The notes under the pieces are model-generated. The model had not been told where the DNA came from, searched no databases, and saw nothing but the letters and a program-made list of their open reading frames with translations. This document shows positions 19,701 to 39,499 of a stretch of DNA of 64,000 nucleotides, one piece after another. Source of the DNA: Candidatus Eisenbacteria bacterium (GTDB lineage Bacteria > Eisenbacteria > RBG-16-71-46 > CAIMUX01 > JAHJDP01). The stretch lies in the NCBI GenBank assembly GCA_018831195.1, contig JAHJDP010000002.1, positions 1 through 64,000 of the forward strand. Reading direction: 5' to 3'. The position numbers and the translations under genes are program-made. Positions within the stretch are counted from its first letter, which is position 1; each line of letters opens with the position of its first letter.

Positions 19701-21687
19701 CCCCGGCCGATCTCTTCTCGATGGCGCTCTGGATGGAAGCAAGACAGGAAGGTTTTATGGCGAACGCGGCGGGCGGTATCTCGCCATTTTGGAAACGGTC
19801 GGAAAAGAAAGGGGCATTGACTATACGGCTCCGTTTAATGCCCTTTCTTCCGAGGCTCTGGAAATCGCTCTCTATGGAACCGGCGCGACGGTATGGAATG
19901 TCGTCTGGAAATTTAACAGGAAGGGCCGCATAGGTGAGCACGCTTGGGATACGCCCTGGCTCGGCTTCTGTACATACGTAGAGCAGGAATACGCGCGGGT
20001 GCACGCCGATCATCGCGGTGAACAGATGTTGCCCCTCATGAAGGATATTTTATGTCCAACCTGCCAAGGCAAAAGATTGTCCCCGGAAATTCTGAAAGTT
20101 GAATTTGCCGGGAGAAATATATCCGAGCTCTGCGCGATGACTGTGACCGGTACAATTTCCTTTTTGAAAGACCTCGCGGCAGAACCGGCGGCGCATTCTG
20201 TCACCAATAGACAGATGCTCATCACGGAAGAGATTCGTCGAGAGATCGCTGAGCGGCTCGAACCTATAAATCAGGTAGGTCTTGGATATCTGACCCTTGA
20301 TAGAAAAACCTCGTCCCTTTCCGGCGGGGAACTGCAGCGGCTGTTGCTGGCAACCCAGCTTCGGAGCGGCCTTTGCCGGGTCACCTATGTCCTGGATGAG
20401 CCGACGGTTGGGCTGCATGAACGCGACACACAAAAACTCCTTGGCGTATTGAAGCGTCTGCGCGATGAAGGGAACACGGTCCTGATCGTCGAGCATGACG
20501 AGCAGGTTATCCGGTCGGCTGATCACATTATAGATATGGGGCCGGGCGCCGGCTCGCTGGGAGGTCATATCGTCGCGGCGGGGGATCTCCCTTCGATCGA
20601 ATCACATCCAAATTCTTTGACGGGGAGATATCTTTCCGGGAAGAAAAAAATAGGCAGGCTTGCTAAAAAGCATGCGTTGGAAGAGGGGTTCGAGATTAAG
20701 GGCGCCCATGCCAACAATCTAAAAAATATCGATGTCAAGATTCCGAAAAGCTGTGTTATCGCAATTACCGGGGTCTCTGGAAGTGGAAAATCGAGTTTGG
20801 CCTTCGATGTGATCACCGAATCGTTTATCAGAAATCGGCCTGTTAAATGCCAGGGGTACGAAGGTTTTGATCAATTCGCCCGGATCATCGGCATCGATCA
20901 AACGCCTATCGGAATCTCCCCCCTCAGCAATCCGGCAACCTATTGCGGGCTCTTCGACAAAATTAGAGAACTCTTTGCTCAAACAGAGCCCTCAAGGAAT
21001 CTGGGTTATAAAAAGGGACATTTTTCATTCAATTCCAAGGGCGGTCGCTGCGAGATCTGTCGGGGCATGGGGCATCAGAAAATTGAGATGGGATTTTTAT
21101 CCGATATCTGGGTCCCGTGCGAGGACTGCGGCGGGCAGCGCTATAATAGAGAGACATTAGAAATCCGTTACAGGAACAGAAATATTTTCGAGGTATTACA
21201 AACAACGATCGATGAAGCGAAGGAAATATTCTTCGACTCCCCGGGCCTGAAATTGCCGCTCGACATTCTCGATTCGGTGGGGCTTGGATATCTCACCCTT
21301 GGCCAGCCTTCGAATACCCTTTCGGGTGGCGAAGCCCAACGGCTGAAACTGGCGACGGAATTGATAAAGTCCACGGTGAGCCGATCCGCAAATAATGGCG
21401 GGGATAACATCTACATTTTCGATGAGCCGACAACAGGACTTCATTTTCAGGATGTCGACCGCCTGGTCGGGATATTCAGCGAACTTGCCGCCAAAGGACA
21501 CACGGTCCTGATCGTCGAGCACAACATGGATATCATCAGAAACGCCGACTGGATTATCGACCTCGGCCCGGAAGGCGGCGATGGCGGCGGCGCGATCGTC
21601 GTTAGTGGAACTGTTGATGAAGTGATGTCGTGTGATGAATCGTGGACAGGGTGGGCCCTGAGAGAAGGATCGGTTAGACGCGGCTAA
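16738..21687 (+). CDS. uvrA: Tandem UvrA-like protein with four ABC ATPase domains
   Basis: UvrA normally has two nucleotide-binding domains in about 940 residues. This 1649-residue protein carries four. Walker A motifs lie at 31-38, 509-516, 860-867 and 1345-1352; signature motifs at 354-361 (LSAGEAQR), 695-702, 1194-1201 (LSGGELQR) and 1528-1535; and CxxC zinc pairs at 136/139, 275/278, 605/608, 628/631, 968/971, 1106/1109, 1438/1441 and 1461/1464. A charged linker (about 800-832) joins the halves. In both halves about 115 residues between Walker A and the zinc pair are missing, the place of the UvrB-binding module and the first CxxC pair, so each half is UvrA2-like. Walker B of domain 2 reads LNEP instead of LDEP. 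The gene overlaps the convergent 21674 gene by 14 bases. Confidence 0.9.
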   Translation: MKKLTIRSAREHNLKSVDVDIPHDSLVVITGVSGSGKSSLAFDTIYREGQRRYLSSLSSYARQYLGKLGKPDFERIDGLSPAISLDQKTVVRNPRSTVGTLSGITDILRLLFSRLGDCEPGTSSSSFSFNSPKGACPVCKGLGVEDRIIPDLLVLDNTKTIREGALVLTTPTGYLVYSQVTLDVLNTVCRAHGFSIDIPWKDLTDDQLHVILNGSDKIKIPYGKHPLESRLKWAAFTAKPREEGYYKGILPVMEDILKRDRNNNILRFVRSVKCRGCGGRRLNVDVLKITCFGRNIAALSALTIDELHSYFAQIKLSEKESPIGRPLVEQLLERSGMLRRLRLGYLTVDRESTTLSAGEAQRIRLTSIVGSRLQGILYILDEPSVGLHPVDHQSLLEILKQLRDSGNTVLVVEHDEETMRHADWLIDIGPRAGSLGGEILFEGAPKNIPAKIAASKSETLPYLLGAKQITIPDKVRTGAGEIKILGAGEFNLKNIDVRFKTAAFNVVTGVSGAGKSTLVNRTLAFKLKECAGEAAVKYHHIEGLEQIDKLIEIDQAPIGRTPRSNPATYTKLFDLIRDLFSRQSAAKELGFDKGRFSFNVKGGRCERCQGAGVQQIGMHFLNDVSVTCEECGGKRFDESTLSVLYRGKNIHDVLEMPVEEAARFFVDAERIMHYLDTLLDVGLGYIKLGQPSTTLSGGEAQRIKLAAQLARPATGRTLYILNEPTTGLHSADIVVLLKAINRLIDAGNTVIAIEHNIDFIKSADWAVDLGPGSGKEGGRVVFMGLPMEMADSKESLTGRALKESGSRRPIQEGTDDGKTDGRGRTGAGPKKNMEIRGAAAHNLQSIDVDIPHEKLTVITGVSGSGKSSLAFDTVYAQCRRKFSESLSTQARRYLTKLPTPPVEETLGLNAAIAIQQQRGRDNPRSIIATVTEIYDVYRLLFSRAGMACGTSTDFPAGAFSFNHHLGSCMECRGLGVKIGCSPEALVSHPGRSLLDGALDGSKTGRFYGERGGRYLAILETVGKERGIDYTAPFNALSSEALEIALYGTGATVWNVVWKFNRKGRIGEHAWDTPWLGFCTYVEQEYARVHADHRGEQMLPLMKDILCPTCQGKRLSPEILKVEFAGRNISELCAMTVTGTISFLKDLAAEPAAHSVTNRQMLITEEIRREIAERLEPINQVGLGYLTLDRKTSSLSGGELQRLLLATQLRSGLCRVTYVLDEPTVGLHERDTQKLLGVLKRLRDEGNTVLIVEHDEQVIRSADHIIDMGPGAGSLGGHIVAAGDLPSIESHPNSLTGRYLSGKKKIGRLAKKHALEEGFEIKGAHANNLKNIDVKIPKSCVIAITGVSGSGKSSLAFDVITESFIRNRPVKCQGYEGFDQFARIIGIDQTPIGISPLSNPATYCGLFDKIRELFAQTEPSRNLGYKKGHFSFNSKGGRCEICRGMGHQKIEMGFLSDIWVPCEDCGGQRYNRETLEIRYRNRNIFEVLQTTIDEAKEIFFDSPGLKLPLDILDSVGLGYLTLGQPSNTLSGGEAQRLKLATELIKSTVSRSANNGGDNIYIFDEPTTGLHFQDVDRLVGIFSELAAKGHTVLIVEHNMDIIRNADWIIDLGPEGGDGGGAIVVSGTVDEVMSCDESWTGWALREGSVRRG

Positions 21688-25398: not shown

Positions 25399-28300
25399 TC
25401 ACTCGAGCAGGATCAACGGCCGCGTCTCGCTCCGTCCGAGTAGGTCCAGCCGGCAAAAATAGACGCCGGAAGTGACCCGGGCCCCCGCCAGATTCCGCCC
25501 ATCCCAAGCAACCGAGTGAATACCGGCGGATTGCTCGGTATCGACGAGCCGCCGCACGAGCCGTCCGCCGGCATCATAGATGCTTAGGCTGACCGGCTCC
25601 CGTCCGCCCGATCCCGGTACCTGATAGGTCAGGGTCGTGGAGGACCGGAACGGGCTCGGTTGACCGGGGCTGAGGAGATGCCCGCCCCGTAATATGCCGG
25701 GTTCCTGATCCGTCGGATTCTCTACTGTCGAACTCCCGCTGCAGCCTTCCGGCCAGGCGCCGATCTGCCCGCACACCTGATTGTTCCATTCAGTACAAGG
25801 AGAGGTTTGATGTAATGTATAAGGCTCTTCCGGGTTCTGCTGCCCGCAGAAGAGGGGATCCTCGCTGATGTTGTCATCCATGCCGAGGAAGTCGGCGATC
25901 GCCCCCACCCAGTCGCCGCCGATGTTGCCGTAGAGATCACAGCAGGCCATACTCGGGACGGCCATGCTATTGGCGCAGTAAATCGCACCGCCGCTGAAGT
26001 TCGAGGCGATGATCGTGTTATCAATAACCGGGGTCGCGTATTCATAGCAGGCCAAGCCGCCGCCGGCAGTCGCCGTGTTGCCGACAAGGGTGCATGCGCT
26101 GATCAGCGGCATTGATTCCCAAAAGGTCATGGCACCGCCGGCATCGGCATCATTCCCCTCAAATGTGCACCGCAGCATATACAAATGGCAGTTGTTTCCA
26201 AAGAGGCCTCCGCCGGATGGAGCCGTGTTGAATTGGAACAGGCACTGGCTGATATCGGGAGAGGCATAGTTGCAGTAGAAGGCTCCACCGGCTTGCGAGG
26301 CTTGATTATCGTTAAACACGCAGGTATTGAAGTTTCCCGGAAACTGCCGAAGATAGCAGGCGCCACCATAAACGGCCGTGTTGTGCGACATGGTTGTGAT
26401 GCCGAAATCGAAGTAGGACTGATCCCAGGCGCAGACGCCGCCGCCATATTCGGCGGCATTGCCGGTCAAGAAACACATAAACGTAGTGGCATCGGCATCC
26501 TCTGCATAGATCGCGCCGCCGCGGGCGTTCCCGGTCAGGGCGCTATTGTTCTCCAGGGTGCACCGATCGAGGGTCAGGTAGGTCGATTCCCCCGATATAA
26601 AGATCCCCCCGCCCATCGTCGCCTCATTCCCCGTGAATGTGCAGTCCGTCAGTAATATCTCGGCGCCGGTATCGCCGTACAAACCGCCCCCGCCGCTTTC
26701 GGCTTCGCCGGTGGCGCGATTGTCACGGAACTCGCAATTGGTGAGGGCGGCTGAGGCATCAAGCCCGACCCGCAGTCCCCCCCCATAACTGCAGACATTG
26801 GAGAGGAACTCGCAACCGGTGAAGGTTGGGTAAGCGTCCTCCGATTCAACGTACACAGCGCCGCCGGAACCGCCGCCGCATGTATTTGAAGAAAATTCGC
26901 AGTTCAAAAAAGTCGTCTGCCCGAAGGCGAGAACCGCGGCGCCCGCCATAATGGCGGTGTTCCCTTGGAAAGTGCAATTTGTATAGGTTGTCGGCCAATT
27001 CTGGCACAACAGGGCGCCCCCCATCATGGAACTATTCCCAACCAGCCGGCAGTCGCTGGCCCAGACGCCTGAGAACTGATCGCCCGCGATGGCGCCTCCC
27101 ATCTGATCGGCGTGGTTATTGGAGAGAATGCAGTTGGCCAGCGTGGGATTGGCGCCGCCGGTGCAGCGTATGGCGCCGCCGGCCGATAATGTATATCCAT
27201 TGGATATCGTCACACCCCGGATGACGCTGGTACTGTCTTCATACATTTGGAATTGAAACCCGCGGTGCGAGGAGCCATAGCTCCCTTCGCAATCGATAAT
27301 ACAGGCGTTGGGATTGTCCGAAGCCGAGCGCACGGTGAGCCGCTTGCCGTAAAAATCGAGATCGCGGTTCCCGTCGCCTGTATAAGTTCCGTCACCCAGT
27401 TCTACAATGCCGCCCCAGACCGCCGCATCGATCGCCGCCTGGATCGTCGCGTAATCGCCGCCGCCGCCCGCCTCTACGGAGTAGACCATCGGCCCGCAGG
27501 AGACCGGAAAGCGCCCTATCAAACCGCAGGCGCTCTGCTCAGGAGCGCACGGCGAATTTTCATGCAGGCCGAAGGGCACAACCGATCCGCAATAGAGGGG
27601 ATCGGCGCAGATATTTCCCCATTGACCCAAATAGGGGGCCAGACCACCCACCCAATCACCGCCGCCGTTGCCGAAAAAGTCACAGCACTCCATATCGGCG
27701 TTCCCGCCGGTCCGCCAATAGACCGGCTGGTGGTCGCCGAAGGAGATGATCGTATGCTCCAAAAAGGCGGTACCGCTGACATCGACCAGGACCGACACGT
27801 CACGCGAGGTGCCGTTGATCGTGCATTGATTCATCCAGGTATCGCTCGTGTGGAGATAGAGGCAGGCGCCGCCATACCCGCTGTTGCCGCTGAACAGACA
27901 TTCGTTCAGACTCACCCACGAGAGATTGACGGCGCAGATGACCCCGCCGCGGCCGTCATTCTGGTCGAGATTTTCGTTGCCGGCAAAGAGGCACCCCGAA
28001 AATTCCATGGCCGAGTAGTCATCCATAAAAACCGCTCCGCCGTCATATTCGGCGCGATTGTTCCAGAAGATACAGTTCTCGAAATGAGTGTAACTCATGG
28101 TCGCGGCAATCGCGCCCCCGGAGTTGGTCCCGGTTACATACCCGTTCTTGATTGTTAAACCACGGATATAGGAACCGTCGGACGCGCTGTCCAAGATAAA
28201 ACCGCGATGCGGCGCGCCGGCGCTCCCCTGGCAATCGATCACGCAGAAGGCCGGATCACCACTCTGCGATTCGATGGTGATGATGAGATCACCGAGAGTG

Positions 28301-28506
28301 ATGTCCCGGTTCCCCGCGCCGGTGAACGTACCGTCGGGGAGCTGGATGACATCCTCATTTTCCGCTCCATCCAGCGCTGCTTGAAGGGTCGGATAGTCTC
28401 CCGTCCCGTCGGGGCGCACGGTGATCACCACGGCCGCCGCCGGGGCGATCAGCCAGAGGGTGAGAGCGATGCTGAGCCAAGCAGCGACGATAGGTCCGCG
28501 GTACAT
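25399..28506 (-). CDS. Secreted right-handed beta-helix protein with FlgD-like C-terminal domain
   Basis: The 1035-residue protein begins with a signal peptide and then shows two tandem parallel beta-helix regions, each introduced by the same strand-turn pattern (ITVRPDGTGDYPTLQAALDGA and VEAGGGGDYATIQAAIDAA). Coils repeat motifs such as GGAI, NN and C(T/E)F with regularly spaced small and hydrophobic residues and many Cys. The last 70 residues are an Ig-like FlgD/Por-type domain (LSIYDAGGRLVRRLV ... WDGRNLAGA). This is probably a large surface or secreted protein that binds polysaccharide. Enzymatic activity cannot be claimed because no lyase motif is visible. It ends the minus-strand block of secreted genes. 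Confidence 0.85.
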   Translation of the reverse strand: MYRGPIVAAWLSIALTLWLIAPAAAVVITVRPDGTGDYPTLQAALDGAENEDVIQLPDGTFTGAGNRDITLGDLIITIESQSGDPAFCVIDCQGSAGAPHRGFILDSASDGSYIRGLTIKNGYVTGTNSGGAIAATMSYTHFENCIFWNNRAEYDGGAVFMDDYSAMEFSGCLFAGNENLDQNDGRGGVICAVNLSWVSLNECLFSGNSGYGGACLYLHTSDTWMNQCTINGTSRDVSVLVDVSGTAFLEHTIISFGDHQPVYWRTGGNADMECCDFFGNGGGDWVGGLAPYLGQWGNICADPLYCGSVVPFGLHENSPCAPEQSACGLIGRFPVSCGPMVYSVEAGGGGDYATIQAAIDAAVWGGIVELGDGTYTGDGNRDLDFYGKRLTVRSASDNPNACIIDCEGSYGSSHRGFQFQMYEDSTSVIRGVTISNGYTLSAGGAIRCTGGANPTLANCILSNNHADQMGGAIAGDQFSGVWASDCRLVGNSSMMGGALLCQNWPTTYTNCTFQGNTAIMAGAAVLAFGQTTFLNCEFSSNTCGGGSGGAVYVESEDAYPTFTGCEFLSNVCSYGGGLRVGLDASAALTNCEFRDNRATGEAESGGGGLYGDTGAEILLTDCTFTGNEATMGGGIFISGESTYLTLDRCTLENNSALTGNARGGAIYAEDADATTFMCFLTGNAAEYGGGVCAWDQSYFDFGITTMSHNTAVYGGACYLRQFPGNFNTCVFNDNQASQAGGAFYCNYASPDISQCLFQFNTAPSGGGLFGNNCHLYMLRCTFEGNDADAGGAMTFWESMPLISACTLVGNTATAGGGLACYEYATPVIDNTIIASNFSGGAIYCANSMAVPSMACCDLYGNIGGDWVGAIADFLGMDDNISEDPLFCGQQNPEEPYTLHQTSPCTEWNNQVCGQIGAWPEGCSGSSTVENPTDQEPGILRGGHLLSPGQPSPFRSSTTLTYQVPGSGGREPVSLSIYDAGGRLVRRLVDTEQSAGIHSVAWDGRNLAGARVTSGVYFCRLDLLGRSETRPLILLE

Positions 28507-28533
28507 AACAACCTCCTATACATTAAGACAGGA

Positions 28534-29625
28534 TCACGGGTTGACACTCTTCGCCGGCCGGAAACCGACCTCATAGGTCTTGCTGGTGGGGGTATAATCG
28601 AATCGTATAGAGCATCGCATCCGGTTCTGGTTGTAGTACCAGGAGCCGCCATGCAGCACCTTGTAAAGTGCACTCGCCGGTCCTATCGGGTCGGTATCCG
28701 GATTGTCTCCCAGGTCGCATACGTGCCAGTCGTTGCACCACTCCATGAGATTTCCACCCATGTCATAGAGACCCAACGATGACGGGGCCACTGGATACGT
28801 TTCCACCGGCGTTGTCCAACCGATACACATTTCATAAGCGCCCCAACGGTAATTGGCGATGCTGCAGTCGGGATCATCGTCCCCCCACGGATAAGCCCTA
28901 TCCCCCTCGATCTGCGTCGCATACTCCCACTCGGCATCGGTCGGTAAACGGTACCCCTGCGCTCCATACGGATCGCCCCCGTTGCATGACCAGTCCCCCG
29001 TGTGTTCATAGGCCCGCGGCAACCCCGCCTGCAGGCTCAACCAGTCGCAATAGCGGGCCGCCCCATACCAGGTCACCATCAGGACCGGGTGATCACCGGG
29101 ATCGTATCCGTTGGGGTAGGCGTTTTGGGCTTCCGTTGACGGGGATTCGCGCAGGTAAAACGTTCCCTCGCCGTCGAACTGGATTTCCGACCAATCCCAA
29201 CCCATCCCCAGCAGTTCCACCGTGCTTCCGTCCAGGTCGTCCCGCACCTCGTGTGAGAGGTTCACCGTGACATACCCGTTGTCATACGCCCATTGCAGCG
29301 CCTCCATGTACTCCTGGTTTGTCACCTCATGCTGCCCAAGGTAAAAGTCATGCGTCAGGGTCACCTCTCGTTCGTCAATACCGCACTGGGATTCCATATT
29401 CCCATCACCCATCCAGAAGACCCCGGCCGGCACCATGACCATCCCCGGCGGAACGACCATATCATCGTAAAAGGTCACGCTGTCGACATCCGATACCGCG
29501 TATTCATCGATCCCTGTATAGGTGTGGACCTGCATCTTCCACTCGCCGTTGACCGTTGAAATCGCAAGGACCAATACCAAGCCCAGCAGAGCCATCAATT
29601 GTATAACCATCATCCGTCGTCTCAT
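28534..29625 (-). CDS. Secreted FGE-sulfatase (SUMF1/EgtB-like) domain protein
   Basis: The start at 29625 follows GAGGAGG. A signal peptide is followed by a short VSDVDSVTF strand-turn shared with the 29709 protein, then a formylglycine-generating-enzyme-type domain (about residues 60-360) with MVMVPAGVFWMGD, EVTNQEYMEAL, RLPTDAEWEYAT, LYDMGGNLMEWCNDWH and HGGSWYYNQNRMRC. The fold is common in non-catalytic or EgtB-like proteins, and the active-site cysteine pair of true FGE is not convincing. A location outside the cytoplasm suggests a binding role. It lies between two other secreted-protein genes. Confidence 0.85.
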   Translation of the reverse strand: MRRRMMVIQLMALLGLVLVLAISTVNGEWKMQVHTYTGIDEYAVSDVDSVTFYDDMVVPPGMVMVPAGVFWMGDGNMESQCGIDEREVTLTHDFYLGQHEVTNQEYMEALQWAYDNGYVTVNLSHEVRDDLDGSTVELLGMGWDWSEIQFDGEGTFYLRESPSTEAQNAYPNGYDPGDHPVLMVTWYGAARYCDWLSLQAGLPRAYEHTGDWSCNGGDPYGAQGYRLPTDAEWEYATQIEGDRAYPWGDDDPDCSIANYRWGAYEMCIGWTTPVETYPVAPSSLGLYDMGGNLMEWCNDWHVCDLGDNPDTDPIGPASALYKVLHGGSWYYNQNRMRCSIRFDYTPTSKTYEVGFRPAKSVNP

Positions 29626-29708
29626 TACTCCATCCTCCTCCCGCTGCCTGTGAATCTGTTGAATCCAATATCGCGCATTCCTGCCTGCACTCTTCAGAAG
29701 AAGTAATC

Positions 29709-30293
29709 TCACGGCAGCAGGATCATCCGCCGGCTCTCTTCGATCCCGGGCGCTCTCAAATTGTAAAAGTAGACGCCGCTGGGGACCGCCCGCCCGGCGC
29801 CATCCAATCCGTCCCAAGCCACGGTGTAGCGGCCGGCCTTGCTTGTTTCGCTCACAAGAGCGCGGATCAGCCGCCCGCTCACGCTGTAGATCCCCAATTC
29901 CACCTCCCCGGCCCGCGGCAGCTCATAGCTGATGCGCGTGTCGGGCGAGAAGGGGTTCGGTTGGTTTTGGAAAAGGTGAATCACATCGACCAGCGCCGCG
30001 GCATTCATGGGATCTTCTACATTTGAGGCGTCCCAAAGAAATTCGATCCGCTCGATCAACGCGAGATCGTAGTAGTTCCAAATGTCGCCGGTCACGACGG
30101 CGAAGGTCTCCTCACCTTCAAAGCCGGCCCAGTCGATGTCGCTCAGGTTGTAGGTCGCCCCCTCTCCTCCGTTCAGATAAACGGCGAGCATCGGTTCATC
30201 CGCCCGGGCTCCCGTGAGAAGCAGCAGTATGGCGAGAAGGTGGAAGGCGGCCAAAGCGATGCCTGTACCTCGCCCTTGTTTTTGTCGTTGCAT
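29709..30293 (-). CDS. Secreted protein with FlgD-like C-terminal domain
   Basis: The start at 30293 follows AGGAGG. A signal peptide leads into about 80 residues of unknown fold, including LSDIDWAGFEG, which resembles the SDVDSVTF element of the neighbouring FGE-like protein. The last 70 residues are the FlgD/Por-type Ig domain (LGIYSVSGRLIRALV ... WDGLDGAGRAV). It is probably a small surface-anchored partner of the next two secreted proteins. Confidence 0.7.
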   Translation of the reverse strand: MQRQKQGRGTGIALAAFHLLAILLLLTGARADEPMLAVYLNGGEGATYNLSDIDWAGFEGEETFAVVTGDIWNYYDLALIERIEFLWDASNVEDPMNAAALVDVIHLFQNQPNPFSPDTRISYELPRAGEVELGIYSVSGRLIRALVSETSKAGRYTVAWDGLDGAGRAVPSGVYFYNLRAPGIEESRRMILLP

Positions 30294-30382
30294 GAGCACC
30301 TCCTGTACAAAAGGTTGGGATTCCTTCAGATGGGGAGAAAGGCCGGATGGGCGCCAAAAGACCCGCCGTTTCAATACCCCGC

Positions 30383-30500: not shown

Positions 30501-31214
30501 CTAGGGAATCCGCAGCCGCTCCGGCGTTGAGTGCTGAAGTTCCTCTCCGCGCTGCAGGGCTCTGACCTGCCAGAGGATCGGCTCACGGCCAAAGGTCTCG
30601 CTCAACCGGGCGCCCTCCACGCTCGCGGCCGGATCGCTTCCCACCGGCAGGCGAAGTTGCACATTAAGATCAGCGTCCAGAAGAAGAACCTCATATCCGT
30701 CGGCCCCCTCCACAGGCTCCCAGCTCAGAAGAAATTGATCTTCAGAAAGCGCCCGCGGCGGATGAAGGCTCAAGGCCGCCACCCTGTCCGTCGCCGCTTC
30801 GCGGGTCACGATGGGACCGGAGATCTCGCCCAGGTGGTGATAGATCATTAGAAAACCGACGGCCACGACACAGATCGCCGCCAGACCCCAGGCCGGTCTG
30901 AAACCGGGCCGCCATAGCCGGCTTAGAAAGAGATGGAACGGTCCGGGCGCGCTCCTCCGGCGCGGGAGTTCGCCCTCACCACCCGCCGGAAGATCTCCCA
31001 ACCCAAGTTTCTGATCCAAAATTTGTTGGAGCTTTGCGGCCGCAACCTGCGGCTGCGCCCCCTTGGGCACAACGCTCGGATTCTTAAAGGCCAGGACAGA
31101 GGCCAACAGGGCCTGGCAATGCGCGCATCCGGCCAGATGCGCTCGCCGCGGATCGTCATCGGGCAGATCCGCGATCTCTCCCAACTCCTCAATGCGATAG
31201 CAGTCCCGGCTCAT
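30501..31214 (-). CDS. Membrane anti-sigma factor (zinc-finger type)
   Basis: The N terminus has a zinc-coordinating H-x3-C-x2-C motif (AHLAGCAHCQALL, about residues 25-37) that is typical of anti-sigma domains binding an ECF sigma factor. One membrane segment (WGLAAICVVAVGFLMIYHHL, near 115-135) divides the cytoplasmic part from a C-terminal periplasmic domain of about 95 residues that looks like a beta-sandwich (YEVLLLDADLNVQLRLPVG, WQVRALQRG). It overlaps the sigma-factor gene by four bases, so the pair is coupled. A membrane anti-sigma factor of this shape could be released by proteolysis of its outer domain. Confidence 0.82.
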   Translation of the reverse strand: MSRDCYRIEELGEIADLPDDDPRRAHLAGCAHCQALLASVLAFKNPSVVPKGAQPQVAAAKLQQILDQKLGLGDLPAGGEGELPRRRSAPGPFHLFLSRLWRPGFRPAWGLAAICVVAVGFLMIYHHLGEISGPIVTREAATDRVAALSLHPPRALSEDQFLLSWEPVEGADGYEVLLLDADLNVQLRLPVGSDPAASVEGARLSETFGREPILWQVRALQRGEELQHSTPERLRIP

Positions 31215-31882
31215 GACTCTCTGTCTCCCTCCATGGTGCCGCGGCCCTCCGGCCGGCCGTTGCGGTTTCTGCGATCGGCCAAGGCCGCACGGAGCTTGCG
31301 GCGGGCGCGCTGGAGCACCCCGCGCGCGCCCGACACCTCTTCAATCCGCAAGATCACCGTGATCTCATCCACCGGCATGCGCTCGGTGCAGCGCAGACGG
31401 ATGGCCCGTTGTTCGAGCGGATCCAATCGCTCCCGGACAAGATCCAGCAAAACCAGCTCATCGGCTTGCTCTTCGCGGAGCTGCTCGGGACCGGCATGCG
31501 GCGCCGGTAAATCCTCCAGCTCAACCTCCTCATCGCGGAGGAGGGACGGGCTTTGCACCGCATTGATACAACGGTTGCGCGTAATGGCAAAGATCCACGA
31601 AAAGAACCGTCCTTGTCCGCCGAAACTTTCCAGATGGGTATAGGCGCTCATCAAGACATCTTGGGAGAGATCCAACGCCCGTTCATGTTCATGCACGAAG
31701 CGGAAGCACCAGATGTAGACACGTTCGGCGTAGCGCCCCAGGAGTTCCGAGGCCGCCTGGCGGGACCGGACCGACTCCGGATCCTCGCGGGCGATCTGGA
31801 CCAGCGCCTCATCGCTCGGCGTATCGGTTCTCTCTATCGGCATAGACAATCCTGCCAGGGTGGAATCACAGGCGATCCTCAT
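31211..31882 (-). CDS. ECF-type RNA polymerase sigma factor
   Basis: The 223-residue protein has region 2 (RFVHEHERALDLSQDVLMSAYTHLE, then SWIFAITRNRCIN) and region 4 (LDPLEQRAIRLRCTERMPVDEITVIL, then RARRKLRAAL), with no region 1 or 3, as in ECF sigma factors. The start could be the ATG at 31882, six bases after the CHAT stop, or 31843 with an AGGA upstream. It directly follows the TPR-CHAT gene and overlaps the anti-sigma gene by four bases. Confidence 0.9.
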   Translation of the reverse strand: MRIACDSTLAGLSMPIERTDTPSDEALVQIAREDPESVRSRQAASELLGRYAERVYIWCFRFVHEHERALDLSQDVLMSAYTHLESFGGQGRFFSWIFAITRNRCINAVQSPSLLRDEEVELEDLPAPHAGPEQLREEQADELVLLDLVRERLDPLEQRAIRLRCTERMPVDEITVILRIEEVSGARGVLQRARRKLRAALADRRNRNGRPEGRGTMEGDRES

Positions 31883-31888
31883 TTGAGA

Positions 31889-34723
31889 TCAACCTGGGGG
31901 GTGGCGGCGCGATCGGCGCCGTATCCCTATAATAATGAGGGATGCGGCCGCTATCATCAAGAGCGAAACGCCTAATAGAAAGTAAAATAACACGTTAGAA
32001 CGCCGTTCCAGCTTCGCGCGCACGTCGCCGTCCCCCACCACGGTGAAGCCGGCCCAGAAAAACGGAGCGCTCCAGCGCCGATCCCGGCGCATGGCGGATT
32101 GGGCCTGCTGCAGCGCGGCGGCCACCGTTTCCCCATCCGCCAGATGCGCATAGAGATGTTGCATGAGCCGGGCGGTGGCGCGATCCCCCACCGGCCACAG
32201 CGAAGCGATCACGGCGGGAACGCCCGCGCTGAGGAAGGCGCTCGACAACCCCTGCACCCCTTCAAGGGAGAGGATCCGCCCGCCGGCGGTTTGACAGCTG
32301 GAGAGAACCGCCAGCCGCGCCGGCAGTTCCAGATTTGCAATCTGATCGGCGTGCAGATTCTCCGCTCCTTCTTCGGGATAAAACTGAATCGTGGATCGCC
32401 ATGGATACTGATCATCCACCCAGGCATGCGCCGCCAGATGCAGCACCTCATCGTGGGCGATGAGATCGGCCAGGGAGACCGCAGGGGTGTCGCCGGGCAG
32501 AACGAGCGCTTTAACATGGCGGTAGCGGCGCGCCAGCTGCCGCACCTCTTGCACGCCGCCGGGAAGCGCTTCACCTTGGGCCGTTCTCGCGGCCGCAATC
32601 GCCAGGAGCGTCACCGTCTGCGGGGTTTCTTGCGGGGCTTCTTCGGCGGATGGGTGTCCGCGCTGCCGCGTGAGAAAGGTCGCCGATGGGATCCGCACGA
32701 ACGCCTTTCCCGCCGCGATCCGCGGTGAGGAGATAAGCGGCGGCAAGGCCCAGAGCGGAAGGAGGTTCAGGGCGGCGTCGGGGGCGAAGAGGATGCGCGA
32801 GCTGCCGCTGACGAGATCCTCAATGCCGCATAGGATCTGCGCGCCGAGGCGGGCGCCGATATCCTCGAGAAGTTCCCTATCGGCCGGGACCCCCGAGCGC
32901 GGCGGCGCGCTGACCATTTCGTAGTAACGCCGGAGTTTCTCTTCCAACTCCGTTTCGGGCGGAAGTTGTACAACCCGGCACTCGGTACGGGTCACGGCGA
33001 AGAGATACGACCCCTCCGGACCGAGGAAGGCGTCGAGGAGCAGCTCTCCGGGCCGCAGGGTTTCATGCTGCAGCCGCTCCACCGTCGCGAGCGGCGCCGC
33101 TTCGTTTTGGTAGGTTTCCGCCAGGGCCTCTCCCGGCCCCAGCATCCGCTCCAGCAGCGTCCGCGTCTTGAACCCTTGCAGCGCATCAAAGGCGCCGCGG
33201 ATGCGCTGCGCCGCCGGGGTATCGGCCGGATATTCCAGCAGCAGGGCGGCGGTCTGGTTGGAGAGCATGGCGCCATAGGAACCGCGTTGCTCGCGCCACT
33301 CCGGGTTGAGCGGCACCGCGCGATCCGCTTCCCAGAGGCCTTGCGCTGCTTGTACAAGCGCCCAAGCGCTGTCGGGGAGGCCCAGAACACGATAGATCAG
33401 CGCGGATCTGGCCAATGCGCCGACCCGGAAACGTCGCAAACCCAGGCGCTCCTCTTCCCGGTTGACCGCCAGCAGACAGTCCAAGGCCTCGTCGTATCGG
33501 CCAAGCTTGTACAATATGGCACCCATGTGGCTGTGCAAGCCGAGACTCAGTTGTATATTAGAGGCCCCTTCCACCCGCCGGGCGCCCTCTTCCAAAACAG
33601 CCAGGGCCGCCGCGCTGCTGTCCATCGCCGCGAGAGACCGGGCCAGGCCGATCCGGGCGTCGACGCTGTTCTTGGCCGGCAGAGCCTCTTCCAGCGCCAG
33701 AGAACGCCGGTAGAGTTCCGCGGCGTCGCGCTGCCGGCCCTGCAGATGACGCACCAAGGCCATCTGGTTGGTCACTTTACCCGAGAGATCTGAAAATCCC
33801 TGCTCCCGGCACTCTTGTACAAGCACCTCAAGACCGTTGAAGGCCTCTTCATAGCGACCGAGTTGGGTTTGACAGATGGCCAGATTGAGGGCCGGCGTGA
33901 TCGCCGCGCGGTTGTTGCCGCTGCGGCGGTGCAGCGCTTGGGCCTGGCGGAAGTGCGTCTCGGCCGCGCCCGGATCCCCCCGCGAAAACTCCAGCGTGGC
34001 CAAATTGTTAAGGATGGCGTTCAGCATGTAGCTTTGTTCGCCCTCTTGTTCAATCTTCTCGGCGAACGCGGCCGCCTGCCGGCCGATTGTCATCGCCTCT
34101 TCGTAGGATCCCAATCGCGTGAGCGCGACAGCGAGGCCGTTGAGCGCCAAAGCGCGGCTGCCGGGGTTCCCTAATTGTACAAAGAGTTCCGACGCCGACC
34201 GGAATTCCGAGACGGCCTCCTGTGTCCGCCCTTTGTCCAAGTCCTGCCATCCCAGGCCGACGCGCGCCATACCTTGATAAAACTCATCACCGGCGGCGAT
34301 GGAAAGGGCCAGCAAGCGCTCCGCGAGTTCGCGCGCTTCATTACCACGCCCCTGTGAAGCGACGGCGACGCCGAGCCAGCGCAGGATATAACAGGTGGAG
34401 GGCGTGTCGGCCGCCGCCTCGGATAGGGTCAAGGCCTCGCGCAGAAGTTCTTCCCCGCGGCGGGCCCGCCCCTTTCCGGCGCAGATTCCTCCCTCCCGCC
34501 ATAACAGTTGAAGCAGAAGCAGGGAGTCGGATTCCGCCCGCGCCGATGCGATCAGAGGATCGATGGCCGCCATGACCGCATCCGAAGTGGTGACAAGGCG
34601 CAACGAGTCGACGCGGGCCAAAACCGCGGCGCGTTCAGGCGCTGTCAGGGGTAGGGCCAAAACGGCCGGGAAAAACAGGCCGATGAGTCCAACCAGCATG
34701 AGCAGCCGTCGCCCACCCCTCAT
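31889..34723 (-). CDS. Membrane-anchored TPR-CHAT protease-like protein
   Basis: A signal peptide (RLLMLVGLIGLFFPAVLALP) is followed by about ten tetratricopeptide repeats (residues 60-500), then a CHAT domain (about 640-905), the caspase-like peptidase fold. The predicted catalytic dyad is H766 in HLAAHA and C810 in LSSCQTAGG. The segment SLEGVQGLSSAFLSAGVPAVIASLW is typical of the domain. A C-terminal membrane helix (about 912-933) ends in a basic tail (RRRSRRHPPG), placing the repeats and protease outside the inner membrane. It starts three bases after cydB and ends six bases before the ECF sigma factor. The substrate is unknown; the anti-sigma factor is a candidate by inference. Confidence 0.88.
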   Translation of the reverse strand: MRGGRRLLMLVGLIGLFFPAVLALPLTAPERAAVLARVDSLRLVTTSDAVMAAIDPLIASARAESDSLLLLQLLWREGGICAGKGRARRGEELLREALTLSEAAADTPSTCYILRWLGVAVASQGRGNEARELAERLLALSIAAGDEFYQGMARVGLGWQDLDKGRTQEAVSEFRSASELFVQLGNPGSRALALNGLAVALTRLGSYEEAMTIGRQAAAFAEKIEQEGEQSYMLNAILNNLATLEFSRGDPGAAETHFRQAQALHRRSGNNRAAITPALNLAICQTQLGRYEEAFNGLEVLVQECREQGFSDLSGKVTNQMALVRHLQGRQRDAAELYRRSLALEEALPAKNSVDARIGLARSLAAMDSSAAALAVLEEGARRVEGASNIQLSLGLHSHMGAILYKLGRYDEALDCLLAVNREEERLGLRRFRVGALARSALIYRVLGLPDSAWALVQAAQGLWEADRAVPLNPEWREQRGSYGAMLSNQTAALLLEYPADTPAAQRIRGAFDALQGFKTRTLLERMLGPGEALAETYQNEAAPLATVERLQHETLRPGELLLDAFLGPEGSYLFAVTRTECRVVQLPPETELEEKLRRYYEMVSAPPRSGVPADRELLEDIGARLGAQILCGIEDLVSGSSRILFAPDAALNLLPLWALPPLISSPRIAAGKAFVRIPSATFLTRQRGHPSAEEAPQETPQTVTLLAIAAARTAQGEALPGGVQEVRQLARRYRHVKALVLPGDTPAVSLADLIAHDEVLHLAAHAWVDDQYPWRSTIQFYPEEGAENLHADQIANLELPARLAVLSSCQTAGGRILSLEGVQGLSSAFLSAGVPAVIASLWPVGDRATARLMQHLYAHLADGETVAAALQQAQSAMRRDRRWSAPFFWAGFTVVGDGDVRAKLERRSNVLFYFLLGVSLLMIAAASLIIIGIRRRSRRHPPG

Positions 34724-34726
34724 CGA

Positions 34727-35770
34727 TTAATAACCTTCGCTATCCGTCGCCTGGACCCGGCCGCGGTGTAAGCGGAACAGCACAACAACGTAAAATATCG
34801 CCAGGACAAATCCAACCGGCCACCAGCGCAGCCCGGCCAGGAGGGACTCATGGCTGGCCGCGGCGTTCCCTGCGGTCAGAGATTGCGATGGAGTATCGAT
34901 CGACCGGATCATGACCGGATAAATCGAAGCCGCTGTCGCGCCGAGGTGGCCGAGCAGGAAACCGCCCGAGCTCACAAAGGCAAGCAGATCGCGCCCGGCG
35001 CGGCGGGCGAAGAAAGCGCCCGCGAGACCGGCAACGAAGAGGATCGTCGCCAACCAGGCGAGGGGCCGCGCCGCAAGCGCCGCGTAGAGATCCGGAACAA
35101 GCGCGGCGGTCGCCGCCGTTGCGGCTATCAAGAGAACGATAACCGCCGGAAAGAGGCGGCTCGCCGCCTTCAAGCTCCGCTCGCGCACAAGACCATCCGT
35201 CTTCCATGCGAGGAAGAGCGCGCCGTGATGCAGCAGGGCCGCAAGCGCCAGCACCCCGGCGAGCACGGTATACCAATCGAGGAGACCGAGTTCGCCCCGC
35301 GGTGAGAATGATTCGAAGAGGGAGAGGGCAAACCAGCCGTCCTCCTGGAACGGTACGCCTCGGATCAGGTTGCCCAGCGCGGCGCCGAAGAGGACTGGGG
35401 CGAGCGTCGACGCCGTGGCAAACGTCGCATCCCAGAAGGCGTGCCACATTCCGTCTTTAATATGCGAACGAAACTCGATCGAGATGCCGCGCAGAATCAG
35501 CACCCAGAGAATCAACATGATCGCGAGGTAAAAGCCCGATAGGCCCGAGGCAAGCACCTTGGGGAAGGCAAGCAAGAGCACGCCCCCTCCTGCCAGGAGC
35601 CAGACCTCGTTGCCATCCCAGAACGGACCGATGGCGGCGAGCACCTGGCGGCGCTCCCGGTCGTTTTTTGCGACCCAGAGATGCAGCGCGCCGGCGCCGA
35701 AATCAAATCCGTCCATCACGACATAGATCGCAACCATCACCGCGGCAAGCATGAACCAGAGCATCTCCAT
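34727..35770 (-). CDS. cydB: Cytochrome bd-type quinol oxidase subunit II
   Basis: This is the second core subunit of the bd-type terminal oxidase, which reduces oxygen with quinol without pumping protons. It starts MLWFMLAAVMVAIYVVMDGFDFGAGALH, with the conserved GFDFGAG at the quinol/haem side, and has about eight membrane helices in 347 residues. It follows cydA by 12 bases and precedes the TPR-CHAT gene by three, so one transcript is likely. Confidence 0.95.
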   Translation of the reverse strand: MEMLWFMLAAVMVAIYVVMDGFDFGAGALHLWVAKNDRERRQVLAAIGPFWDGNEVWLLAGGGVLLLAFPKVLASGLSGFYLAIMLILWVLILRGISIEFRSHIKDGMWHAFWDATFATASTLAPVLFGAALGNLIRGVPFQEDGWFALSLFESFSPRGELGLLDWYTVLAGVLALAALLHHGALFLAWKTDGLVRERSLKAASRLFPAVIVLLIAATAATAALVPDLYAALAARPLAWLATILFVAGLAGAFFARRAGRDLLAFVSSGGFLLGHLGATAASIYPVMIRSIDTPSQSLTAGNAAASHESLLAGLRWWPVGFVLAIFYVVVLFRLHRGRVQATDSEGY

Positions 35771-35782
35771 GATTCGATCTCC

Positions 35783-37147
35783 TTAGTCGTGGTGCGCCGC
35801 CGCCGATTCCGGTGCAGGGGCGCTGGTTGACAATTTCGGACCATGCCCGACTTCCCTTGCGATGAGCGAGAGGAAGAGGACACCGAGCACAAAGTAAAGC
35901 CCGGCGAAGCCGAGCGTCGTAAACAGCGTGGCGCCGGAATGGACGGTCGGCGAACCGCCTTCCGCCGTGCGCATTAGACCGTAGATCAGCCAGGGCTGGC
36001 GGCCGACCTCGGCCGTCATCCAGCCGGCGGTGTTGGCAATGAAAGGAAACGGGAAGGCCAGCGCGAGAATCCACAGCATCCACCGGGCCAAAGCCAGACG
36101 GCCGCGCCAAAGCATGAGCGTGGCAAAGCCCATGAGCGCGGCAAACAGCGTTCCCAATCCGACCATAATGTGAAAGGAGTAATAGAGGAGCTCAATGTTA
36201 TCCGGCCAGTCACTTTCAGGATAGGCGGCGAGACCGTTGACATTCGCTGAAAATTTACCATAGGCGATCCAGGAGAGGACGGACGGCAGCATGATCGGGT
36301 TGTCGAGCTTGCGCTCCTCGACGTTGGGCTGGCCGATCATTGAGAGCGGCGCATGCGGACCGCTCTCGAAGCGCCCTTCCATCGCCGCCAGCGTCACCGG
36401 TTGGTACTTGGCCACCCCGCGGCCCTGCTCGTGGCCGGTTGGGAAGGCGACGAGCATAGAAGCGATGAGCCCCGCGATCACGCCCGTGCGCAAGGATATC
36501 TTCGCCGTTTCATGCGTCTCGCCCTTCAGCGTCCAATATGCCCCCACCGCGGCGACCACAAAGGCCCCCGACACAACAGAGGCGGTCTGATTGTGCAGGA
36601 ATTGCAAAATCGCCCAGGGATTAAAGACAAACTGGGCGAGACTGGCGATTTGAAAAGTGCCGTCCGCTCCGATGCTGTGTCCGACGGGATGCTGCATAAA
36701 GGCGTTCGTCGCAATGATGAAATATCCCGAGAGCCAACTGCCGGCAAACAACGCGATGCTGGCCAGGTAATGAATCCTTGGACCAAAACGCCGTTCGCCC
36801 CACACAAGCACGGCGAGAAAGCTCGATTCGAGGAAGAAGGCGAAAATCCCCTCCATCGCCAATGTTTGGCCGATGACGCCCCCGGCTCTATGCGAGAAGG
36901 CCGCCCAGTTCGTGCCGAACTGAAACTCCATCGGAATGCCCGTCACAACGCCCATGGCGAAGGTAAGTCCGAAGATGCGGATCCAGAATCGCGCCGCATC
37001 GTTCCAGGCCTCACTGCCGCGGCGCAAGGCGATGCTCTTCATCACGACGATAAGGAGCGCCAATCCCATAGTTAACTGCGGAAAGATATAGTGGAACGTC
37101 AGTGTGAATCCGAACTGCAGGCGGTGCCAGAACATAGGATCACTCAT
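35783..37147 (-). CDS. cydA: Cytochrome bd-type quinol oxidase subunit I (short Q-loop)
   Basis: Subunit I carries the haems. Conserved segments are RLQFGFTLTFHYIFPQLTMG (helix 1 histidine), GIPMEFQFGTNWAAFS, and GRGVAKYQPVTLAAMEG in the periplasmic Q-loop. At 454 residues it is shorter than the long-Q-loop Escherichia coli form and matches the short-loop, often cyanide-insensitive CioA type. It is the first gene of a minus-strand block. Confidence 0.95.
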   Translation of the reverse strand: MSDPMFWHRLQFGFTLTFHYIFPQLTMGLALLIVVMKSIALRRGSEAWNDAARFWIRIFGLTFAMGVVTGIPMEFQFGTNWAAFSHRAGGVIGQTLAMEGIFAFFLESSFLAVLVWGERRFGPRIHYLASIALFAGSWLSGYFIIATNAFMQHPVGHSIGADGTFQIASLAQFVFNPWAILQFLHNQTASVVSGAFVVAAVGAYWTLKGETHETAKISLRTGVIAGLIASMLVAFPTGHEQGRGVAKYQPVTLAAMEGRFESGPHAPLSMIGQPNVEERKLDNPIMLPSVLSWIAYGKFSANVNGLAAYPESDWPDNIELLYYSFHIMVGLGTLFAALMGFATLMLWRGRLALARWMLWILALAFPFPFIANTAGWMTAEVGRQPWLIYGLMRTAEGGSPTVHSGATLFTTLGFAGLYFVLGVLFLSLIAREVGHGPKLSTSAPAPESAAAHHD

Positions 37148-37339: not shown

Positions 37340-39445
37340 TCAGTTTTCCTCCGCCCCATCATCAATCCAATCTCCCATCTCGGAGAGAAGCTCGTTATCG
37401 GGCGGCCCGCCCTTGGGCATACGTTCCCCGGATCCTCCGGCCGATGCTTGTGTTCCCAATAGTTTGTTAACAATATAGCTGCTGTCTGAACGCCCCGGTT
37501 CGACTCTGTTGAGACCGGGAACTTGCGTGCTTGGTACGCCAACGATATTCCCATAGCTCGATCCCGCGCTGAGGTTCAGGTCGGCGGCAGCGCTCTCGGC
37601 GGAATGGCATCCGGCGAGGGCGCAGCTCTGGTCCAGCTTGGGTTCAATGTCGTTGGCAAACGACCGTGCGGGTGGGGGTGGAGGATCGCAGACGGTTGAG
37701 TTTGACGATTGGGAGCAAGCTAGCGGCACGAGGAAGAGCCCCAGAGCCGGGACGGCGGCGGCGATACGGCCCAGAAGTCTGGGAACCCGATTGACAGAGG
37801 GCAGTCGAGAGAGCTTGGACCTGGCAAGGAGGGCGCGACCCTCAAGCTCCAAAGAAAGCGATGCCCACCGAACCGTATCAAGCCGGGTTCTGGCGTTAAC
37901 GGCTTGCCGCAAAGCCCCCATCGCCTCTTGATCAATACGGCGCCCGGCGATAGCCAGATCGGTGATGCGCTGCATATTTTCGACGGTGGCGGAATTGACA
38001 CTCTCGATCAGTGACCTGATCCGGCCCTTGAGATCTGGTGATGTCATCTCGGGGTGAAACCGCGACAGAAGACTGTGGCGAAATCCTAGATCCTGAACGC
38101 GCTGGAGTATGGAGGAACCACCGAAGTGACGATCCCAAAGAACGCTATTGAATAATTGAAAGGCCGTCTCGACCTTGTCATCCAGAATGCGATAGTCAAA
38201 TCCGCGATAGTCTCCGATCGCCCGTCCCTCCTGAATCATCCTGTCTTCCAAGGTCGAACGAGCATAAAGTTCCGTGCGCGCAATGTCAAACGGACAGCGA
38301 AGCTGCCGGCGGAGAAACATCAGATTCTCCTGCAACTCCGGGATCGTCGTCCCAGGATGGAAGATGAGCAGGTTAAAGCAGGCATAAACACCAACCCGCC
38401 GCAGGATGTCCAGCGCTTCCAAGTTAACTTGGGGAGAGACCCGGCGGTTCAGAGCGGCCAACCCACTGGCGGCGTGGGCCTCAATGCCGACATAGGCGCG
38501 GACAAGTCCCTTGTTGCGTAAATAGCGAAAGAGTTCTTCTTCAACATCATCCGGGCGGCACTTGATGACGAAAGCCAGCGGCTGTCCTATCCCGCGCTCA
38601 GCCTGCTCGAGTATCTCCTCGCATCGTTTTTTTGCCTTACGCCGATCCGGATGGATAAAATCGTCGTCGTGAAATACAAAGACGCGGACCCCATGCTCGC
38701 GATGGAGTAACACCATTTCCTCGGCAACATTTCGCGGGGACCGGAAACGAAGCCGGTCTGATGGGACTTGTTTGTGCCAAGCGTGGATGGAGCAGAACGA
38801 ACAAGAACCTGAACACCCACGGCTCGAAACAATCGGGGCTCGGGCATACCCAAGGGCTTTATCCGGACGGCGGCGGGCTGGAAACGGTAATGAATCCAAA
38901 GAAGCGACCTTGGTTGCGGGCAGATGCCGGATGGTGCCGTCGGAACCACGCCACGATACGCCATCCAAAGGTCCCGTGGTTGATTCATCAACCGGGCCAT
39001 CAGGCGCTCTCTCCACCGATCCGCCCATCAATTCGTCTATTGATCCGGACGATAGAGTGTGGAATTCCAGTTTGTTCAGAAGGTTGACAATCCGGAGCTC
39101 CCCATCGTGATGAATGATGGAGTCGATTTCGGGAGTATCTCTGAGAACTTCCTGCGCCCGAAGGGCTGCAAAGTGGCCCCCGGCGGTGATGTGTCCACTG
39201 AAACCCCTCCGTCGTATTTCCGCGACAAGTTTTTGGAAATCGGAGTACCGGCGCTGGGCCACCAGCGAGAGACCAATAAGCGCTGGGCCGCACCGGAGGA
39301 GTTTCCCAGCCACCTTCGGAATCTCCCGGTCATGATTAAACGGAATGAGCAAACACTCATGTCCCGAACGCTCAATCGCGCTGCACAGATAGGAGATCGA
39401 CAAATTCTCTTCGAGGTTGGGGCCGATCAGAATGGCTTTCATCAT
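37340..39445 (-). CDS. B12-binding radical SAM protein fused to a lipoprotein-like haem-binding tail
   Basis: The N-terminal part is a B12-binding domain (about residues 1-130) and a radical SAM domain with C222, C226 and C229 (numbered from an upstream frame start at 39478) in RGCSGSCSFC. At about residue 590 a hydrophobic stretch ends in a lipobox-like LVPLAC. The last 120 residues resemble the PSCyt1-type cytochrome domain: IEPKLDQSCALAGCH (CX4CH haem motif), LNRVEPGRSDSSYIV and ERMPKGGPP. A cytoplasmic radical enzyme joined to a periplasmic-type haem domain is unusual. It could be a gene fusion, or two proteins whose stop was lost. The start at 39445 or 39442 follows GGGGAGG. Confidence 0.78.
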   Translation of the reverse strand: MMKAILIGPNLEENLSISYLCSAIERSGHECLLIPFNHDREIPKVAGKLLRCGPALIGLSLVAQRRYSDFQKLVAEIRRRGFSGHITAGGHFAALRAQEVLRDTPEIDSIIHHDGELRIVNLLNKLEFHTLSSGSIDELMGGSVERAPDGPVDESTTGPLDGVSWRGSDGTIRHLPATKVASLDSLPFPARRRPDKALGYARAPIVSSRGCSGSCSFCSIHAWHKQVPSDRLRFRSPRNVAEEMVLLHREHGVRVFVFHDDDFIHPDRRKAKKRCEEILEQAERGIGQPLAFVIKCRPDDVEEELFRYLRNKGLVRAYVGIEAHAASGLAALNRRVSPQVNLEALDILRRVGVYACFNLLIFHPGTTIPELQENLMFLRRQLRCPFDIARTELYARSTLEDRMIQEGRAIGDYRGFDYRILDDKVETAFQLFNSVLWDRHFGGSSILQRVQDLGFRHSLLSRFHPEMTSPDLKGRIRSLIESVNSATVENMQRITDLAIAGRRIDQEAMGALRQAVNARTRLDTVRWASLSLELEGRALLARSKLSRLPSVNRVPRLLGRIAAAVPALGLFLVPLACSQSSNSTVCDPPPPPARSFANDIEPKLDQSCALAGCHSAESAAADLNLSAGSSYGNIVGVPSTQVPGLNRVEPGRSDSSYIVNKLLGTQASAGGSGERMPKGGPPDNELLSEMGDWIDDGAEEN

Positions 39446-39499
39446 CCGCCTCCCCTGGGCTTCGAAATTCTTTGGCACCCCCGCCCGACAAGCCCGGTG

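Follow-up and report, generated by a model that had tools for sequence, protein, structure and literature searches.

In Myxococcus xanthus, DdvA is a single-chain transmembrane (TM) anti-sigma factor whose periplasmic part is a tetratricopeptide repeat (TPR)-CHAT module (PDB 8ROT, 8RW5; Bernal-Bernal et al. 2024, as cited in PMC12288465), and according to PMC12288465 DdvA/DdvS controls an island that joins a cyclic oligonucleotide-based antiphage signalling system (CBASS) and clustered regularly interspaced short palindromic repeats (CRISPR). In the type III-E CRISPR system, Csx29 is known to cleave Csx30, which inhibits a sigma factor (PMC10028731). The ECF54 group of extracytoplasmic function (ECF) sigma factors has CHAT and subtilase neighbours and is proposed to work without an anti-sigma factor, the sigma factor itself being degraded (PMC8999054). 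Here, we describe a three-gene unit encoding a TPR-CHAT protease, an ECF sigma factor and a TM anti-sigma factor in 64,000 nt of DNA (positions 1 to 64,000 of contig JAHJDP010000002.1, assembly GCA_018831195.1; hereafter ‘the window’) from the 5.24-Mb genome of a Candidatus Eisenbacteria bacterium (hereafter ‘the home genome’). The unit is a split, CRISPR-independent, two-protein variant with a predicted exported CHAT and an intact catalytic dyad, and it is widespread, often in several copies per genome. Its CHAT protein probably turns the sigma factor on by cutting the anti-sigma factor outside the inner membrane.

The unit appears to belong to none of the described systems because protease and inhibitor are two chains, a RAMP-family Cas protein is absent and an anti-sigma factor is present. 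DdvA/DdvS comes closest: both systems have an ECF sigma factor and a TM anti-sigma factor, and the TPR-CHAT protein of the window matches the DdvA chain in the PDB, shares the separase/craspase-like TPR-CHAT fold and is predicted, on the basis of its signal peptide and C-terminal TM segment, to lie outside the inner membrane as well. DdvA, however, is one polypeptide (anti-sigma domain, TM segment, TPR-CHAT), whereas the window and its mapped relatives have separate CHAT and anti-sigma genes; the window CHAT comes with a signal peptide and an anchor of its own, and in the anti-sigma factor a fibronectin type III (FN3) domain takes the place of TPR-CHAT. The 2024 structure paper reportedly describes the active site of DdvA as incomplete and is said to suggest autoproteolysis followed by RseP.

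A preliminary description of the locus missed DdvA/DdvS and named Csx29 as the known parallel; the shared fold (Z 25) bears this out, with Csx29/Csx30/CASP-sigma now in second place. Like the window unit, type III-E Craspase (PMC10028731; PMC9729208) ties a TPR-CHAT protein of the same fold, with a His-Cys dyad, to a protein that inhibits an ECF sigma factor. Yet Craspase is cytoplasmic and activated by RNA-bound Cas7-11, and its inhibitor Csx30 is large and soluble, whereas the CHAT protein of the window is predicted to be exported and its inhibitor is a membrane anti-sigma factor. No RAMP-family Cas protein (PF03787, which includes Cas7-11) was found in the home genome, and no CRISPR arrays or CRISPR-like repeats were seen in the window, in line with the earlier statement that the locus lacks CRISPR. 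The RseA/DegS/RseP pathway also has a single-pass N-in/C-out anti-sigma factor, and M50 candidates are present in the home genome, but site-1 cleavage in that pathway falls to a DegS-type serine protease and not, as proposed here, to a caspase-like cysteine protease.

Architecture of the three-gene unit

The three genes are contiguous on the - strand, to which the coordinates of all features of the unit refer. The open reading frame (ORF) coordinates place the CHAT gene at 31889..34723 (944 aa), the ECF sigma gene at 31211..31882 (223 aa) and the anti-sigma gene at 30501..31214 (237 aa), with a 6-base gap (31883-31888) between the first two and a 4-base overlap between the last two (31211-31882 and 30501-31214). 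These values agree with the preliminary description, which had also attributed to the CHAT protein a signal peptide, a C-terminal anchor and an intact His/Cys dyad, all of which were found, and had predicted its protease domain to be extracytoplasmic, on the same side as the C-terminal domain of the anti-sigma factor, as the signal peptide and C-terminal TM segment also indicate.

The CHAT protein was characterized from its ORF, PF12770, TPR families, an AlphaFold2 (AF2) model and Foldseek/VIA. A predicted Sec signal peptide (residues 1-24, 34652..34723; hydrophobic segment 7-25, Kyte-Doolittle hydropathy [KD] 2.45) is followed by a TPR superhelix (residues ~29-530, 33134..34639), recognized as TPR arrays by Pfam and as helices in the AF2 model, and by the CHAT protease domain (residues ~556-904, 32012..33058), which matches PF12770 at residues 639-898 (E 1.2e-50, 173.1 bits, gathering cut-off 24). 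The predicted C-terminal TM anchor (residues ~912-937, 31913..31990; KD 2.66; AF2 helix 911-940) is followed by RRRSRR; signal peptide, anchor and this basic tail together place the catalytic domain, by prediction, outside the inner membrane, on the same side as the FN3 domain. The AF2 model (predicted local distance difference test score [pLDDT] 85, predicted template modelling score [pTM] 0.80) has structural counterparts in Craspase TPR-CHAT/Csx29 (Z 25), in separase (Z 24) and in DdvA (Z 20.6 over 610 residues). The best PDB sequence match to a CHAT-only profile (A4) was DdvA (E 3.7e-9), with separase and Csx29 also matched; a full-length CHAT profile retrieved mainly TPR proteins, and a PDB sequence search with the single window CHAT domain gave no match.

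The dyad of His766 (codon 32426..32428) and Cys810 (codon 32294..32296) is intact in all 78 sigma-linked CHATs of a survey of 116 CHATs that covered both the dyad and the S1 residue. It is broken only once among the 116, in a CHAT without a sigma neighbour (L046, 4739-7612, -) whose catalytic His is replaced by Arg; this gene may be a decayed or regulatory copy.

The sigma factor matches Sigma70_r2 (PF04542, E 2.3e-11) and, over the full model length, TIGR02937 (sigma70-ECF; E 8e-20, 71.1 bits, cut-off 42.9). Only regions 2 and 4 are present, as in ECF sigma factors, and its named relatives are from metagenome-assembled genomes of Candidatus Eisenbacteria and Krumholzibacteriota.

The anti-sigma factor has no Pfam or NCBIfam match; 18 of its relatives gave nothing in Pfam above chance level, and Pfam zf-HC2 matched none of 19 family members. 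Residue conservation was read from an alignment of the family (A1, 66 rows). The N-terminal helical domain holds a zinc-type motif, HLAGCAHC (H-x3-C-x2-C, of the type found in zinc-binding anti-sigma factors; residues 26-33, 31116..31139), in which H26 is conserved in 82% and C30 and C33 in 88% of the rows; several relatives have lost it. In the AF2 model, this domain leads into a single TM helix (residues 106-129, 30828..30899; KD 2.05), a stretch with pLDDT<50 at residues ~134-142 and a C-terminal domain (residues ~150-237, 30504..30767) for which the best Foldseek matches are FN3 domains throughout. The predicted topology is N-in/C-out: the zinc-motif domain, which putatively binds the ECF sigma factor, is followed by the single helix, the disordered linker and, outside the cytoplasm, the FN3 domain.

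Conservation of gene adjacency

The neighbourhood was surveyed by a scan seeded from the sigma factor and therefore free of selection for CHAT. The scan used a strict family hidden Markov model (HMM), because a broad sigma HMM did not separate the family cleanly from controls. It yielded 50 family sigmas, and 28 sigmas outside the family, also retrieved by it, served as controls. A CHAT gene lies within ≤5 kb of 36/50 family sigmas vs 1/28 controls, and of 19/25 vs 0/12 where both flanks extend ≥5 kb. An anti-sigma family member stands beside the sigma gene in 47/50 family loci; in this the family differs from what is proposed for ECF54, which it resembles in having CHAT proteins near an ECF sigma factor.

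The home genome repeats the pattern. All five of its CHAT genes adjoin an ECF sigma/anti-sigma pair, including a paralogous unit on another contig (L036) with the same CHAT-sigma-anti layout, and none of 17 other sigma loci checked there has a CHAT gene. Elsewhere, most full-length CHAT relatives are contiguous with a sigma and an anti-sigma gene, either as CHAT-sigma-anti or as sigma-anti-CHAT, and of 68 CHAT genes in a broader sample, most of them distant, 36 have a sigma gene ≤2 kb away. Sequence distances co-vary between sigma and CHAT (Mantel r 0.52, 0/999 permutations), sigma and anti-sigma (r 0.39, 0/999) and anti-sigma and CHAT (r 0.27, 3/999). The adjacency of CHAT, sigma and anti-sigma genes is thus far beyond chance. 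The conserved neighbourhood anticipated at the outset holds for adjacency but not for gene order, since CHAT may come first or last.

Agreement of compartments

Of 38 CHATs whose signal peptide is clear, 37 stand beside a TM anti-sigma factor, and the exception (L045) lies just below threshold. Conversely, anti-sigma factors without a TM segment go with CHATs without a signal peptide (Fisher p 0.004, on a count of seven such anti-sigma factors that includes L184, apparently a spurious ORF). Cytoplasmic pairs were inspected by eye at six loci (L063, L226, L228, L236, L237 and L242); they form two or three groups and hence represent few independent switches. Because a CHAT without an export signal is found with a TM-less anti-sigma factor, the two proteins appear to keep to one side of the membrane.

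Where a soluble anti-sigma factor adjoins a cytoplasmic CHAT, it has a common C-terminal domain that starts with a VRG...LLFE-like stretch (L063, 1371-2090; L228, 2953-3651; L230, 8363-9388; L237, 3707-4441; L242, 1001-1669). The one member checked, that of L063, had no Pfam or NCBIfam match.

Proposed mechanism and alternatives

We regard it as fairly probable that the three genes form a signal-transduction unit in which CHAT acts as a putative caspase-like site-1 protease for the anti-sigma factor and is followed by an M50 site-2 protease. In the resting state, the anti-sigma factor would use its zinc-motif N-terminal domain to keep the ECF sigma factor at the membrane, with the FN3 domain projecting outside the inner membrane. 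The exported, anchored TPR-CHAT protein would stand on the FN3 side, where its TPR superhelix may sense or bind something, either another protein or the FN3 domain itself. Its separase-like His-Cys site would then become activated and would cut the anti-sigma factor in the disordered juxtamembrane linker near Arg138, after which an M50 site-2 protease would cut within the membrane and release the sigma factor; the home genome has four PF02163 matches as candidates for this last step (best E 1.7e-64). In a minority version of the system, CHAT and anti-sigma factor would both be cytoplasmic. Computation establishes the gene coupling and its conservation, the intact dyad, the fold, the layout of the anti-sigma factor and the match of compartments, and these speak for the model together with the co-varying distances, the near-invariance of Arg138, the M50 candidates and the Csx29 precedent; sigma/anti-sigma binding, the cut and its position, the signal and the site-2 step are the model's proposals. 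The site-1 protease reading of the preliminary description has thus come through two of its own refuting conditions, as the neighbourhood is conserved and the CHAT domain is predicted to be extracytoplasmic.

Arg138 (codon 30801..30803) is a candidate protease recognition site. It is Arg in 65/66 rows of the anti-sigma alignment, within a V-L-R-G consensus whose flanking residues vary. It is missing from TM-linker-FN3 homologs that have neither CHAT nor sigma (L154, L156-L159), and the other anti-sigma factors of the home genome have no Arg at the matching place. Separase reads Arg at P1 through its S1 residue D2151 (PMC9729208), and a role for Arg138 as a separase-like P1 Arg was considered and dropped, as the S1 residue is not conserved; Craspases, for their part, cut non-conserved sites (PMC11106740). 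For these two reasons, Arg138 is offered as a recognition element and not as P1.

Several points weigh against the proposed mechanism. The position of separase D2151 corresponds, by spacing, to Ala851 in the window CHAT, and across the 116 CHATs it is Ala in 50 and rarely acidic. For six family sigma/anti-sigma pairs, the flanks are complete and yet contain no CHAT gene ≤5 kb away (L083, L089, L092, L097, L098 and L114), and the CHAT-less family anti-sigma factors that could be aligned retain Arg138, which is therefore not strictly tied to CHAT adjacency and may serve another purpose. Outside the FN3 family, the R-G pattern is not enriched in CHAT-linked anti-sigma factors (7/15 vs 5/14 controls, not significant), and the notion of a general R-G linker motif in CHAT-linked anti-sigma factors was abandoned. 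As to compartments, there are few cytoplasmic cases, some of them related to one another, and signal peptides were scored crudely: on inspection, one is evident in several of the 17 ‘no-signal’ CHATs beside a TM anti-sigma factor. Separately, we note that some of the genomes with orphan pairs L083, L089, L092 and L097 may use a CHAT from elsewhere.

The order of events could also be reversed, with another site-1 protease freeing the sigma factor and the sigma factor then switching on CHAT as an effector that cuts other envelope proteins. CHAT heads about half of the units, a usual spot for a sigma target, and CHAT proteases are effectors in other systems (gasdermin cleavage, as cited in PMC9729208). 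An effector, however, would not need the match of compartments between CHAT and anti-sigma factor; at other loci CHAT comes after the sigma/anti-sigma pair; and in DdvA and Csx29 the CHAT module is part of, or acts on, the anti-sigma factor, so we think this order of events unlikely. Slightly less likely still is that CHAT, as a sensor or scaffold, binds the FN3 domain and controls the access of another site-1 protease without itself cutting the anti-sigma factor: the large TPR superhelix and the FN3 domain are binding modules, and the reportedly incomplete active site of DdvA points the same way, but the invariance of the dyad in the sigma-linked copies is not something a pure scaffold would require.

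A grouping without functional meaning, owing to a local operon with cydAB or to random adjacency, is highly improbable. It would suit the local arrangement, in which cydB, preceded by cydA on the same strand (34727-37147, -), ends three bases before the CHAT start, but the survey refutes it: sigma, anti-sigma and CHAT genes recur with changing outer neighbours, far above control. Given the spacing, transcription of cydAB, a respiratory operon, may run on into the unit; this link was not seen at the other mapped CHAT loci.

Site-1 cleavage by CHAT, the interpretation that we prefer, may extend beyond this locus. As a tentative generalization, to which we would grant slightly less than an even chance, such units could be a general kind of stress switch in bacteria, found in Eisenbacteria, Krumholzibacteriota and other groups, in which separase-like CHATs act in trans as site-1 proteases, exported or cytoplasmic to match their anti-sigma factors, with the conserved Arg-linker as recognition site, and of which DdvA and Craspase would be specialized fused and RNA-guided offshoots. 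Site-1 cleavage by the CHAT of the present unit would bring a caspase/separase-type enzyme into the company of the known site-1 proteases of sigma release and would suggest an origin for the sigma wiring in Craspase and DdvA. CHAT proteins are common, and their substrates are mostly unassigned beyond the CRISPR and gasdermin cases; since the present unit points to a likely substrate (the adjoining anti-sigma factor), a compartment and a candidate site, and is free of CRISPR, it makes the role of a CHAT protease directly testable.

Neighbouring genes and other observations

As a hint of the regulon, the outer neighbours of the mapped loci were mixed (FlgD_ig, FG-GAP, aminotransferase, ATP synthase, zincin), with no consistent partner. 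A sigma-70 promoter scan, which is unsuited to ECF promoters, stayed at chance level, and PADLOC made no defence system call, returning weak partial TPR/BovA matches only. Downstream of the unit, 25399-30374 (-) encodes secreted proteins: one with beta-helix/PMP repeats and a small one, each carrying a C-terminal FlgD_ig domain, and a SUMF1-like protein.

Two further genes of the window are unusual. With two matches to the UvrA DNA-binding domain and several to P-loop models, a 1649-aa protein (16738-21684, +) resembles two UvrA copies fused in tandem. The frame of a Radical SAM/B12-binding protein (37340-39478, -) runs on through a lipobox-like stretch to a SCALAGCH tail that resembles a small c-type cytochrome domain; either the two are fused in an unusual way or a gene boundary was missed.

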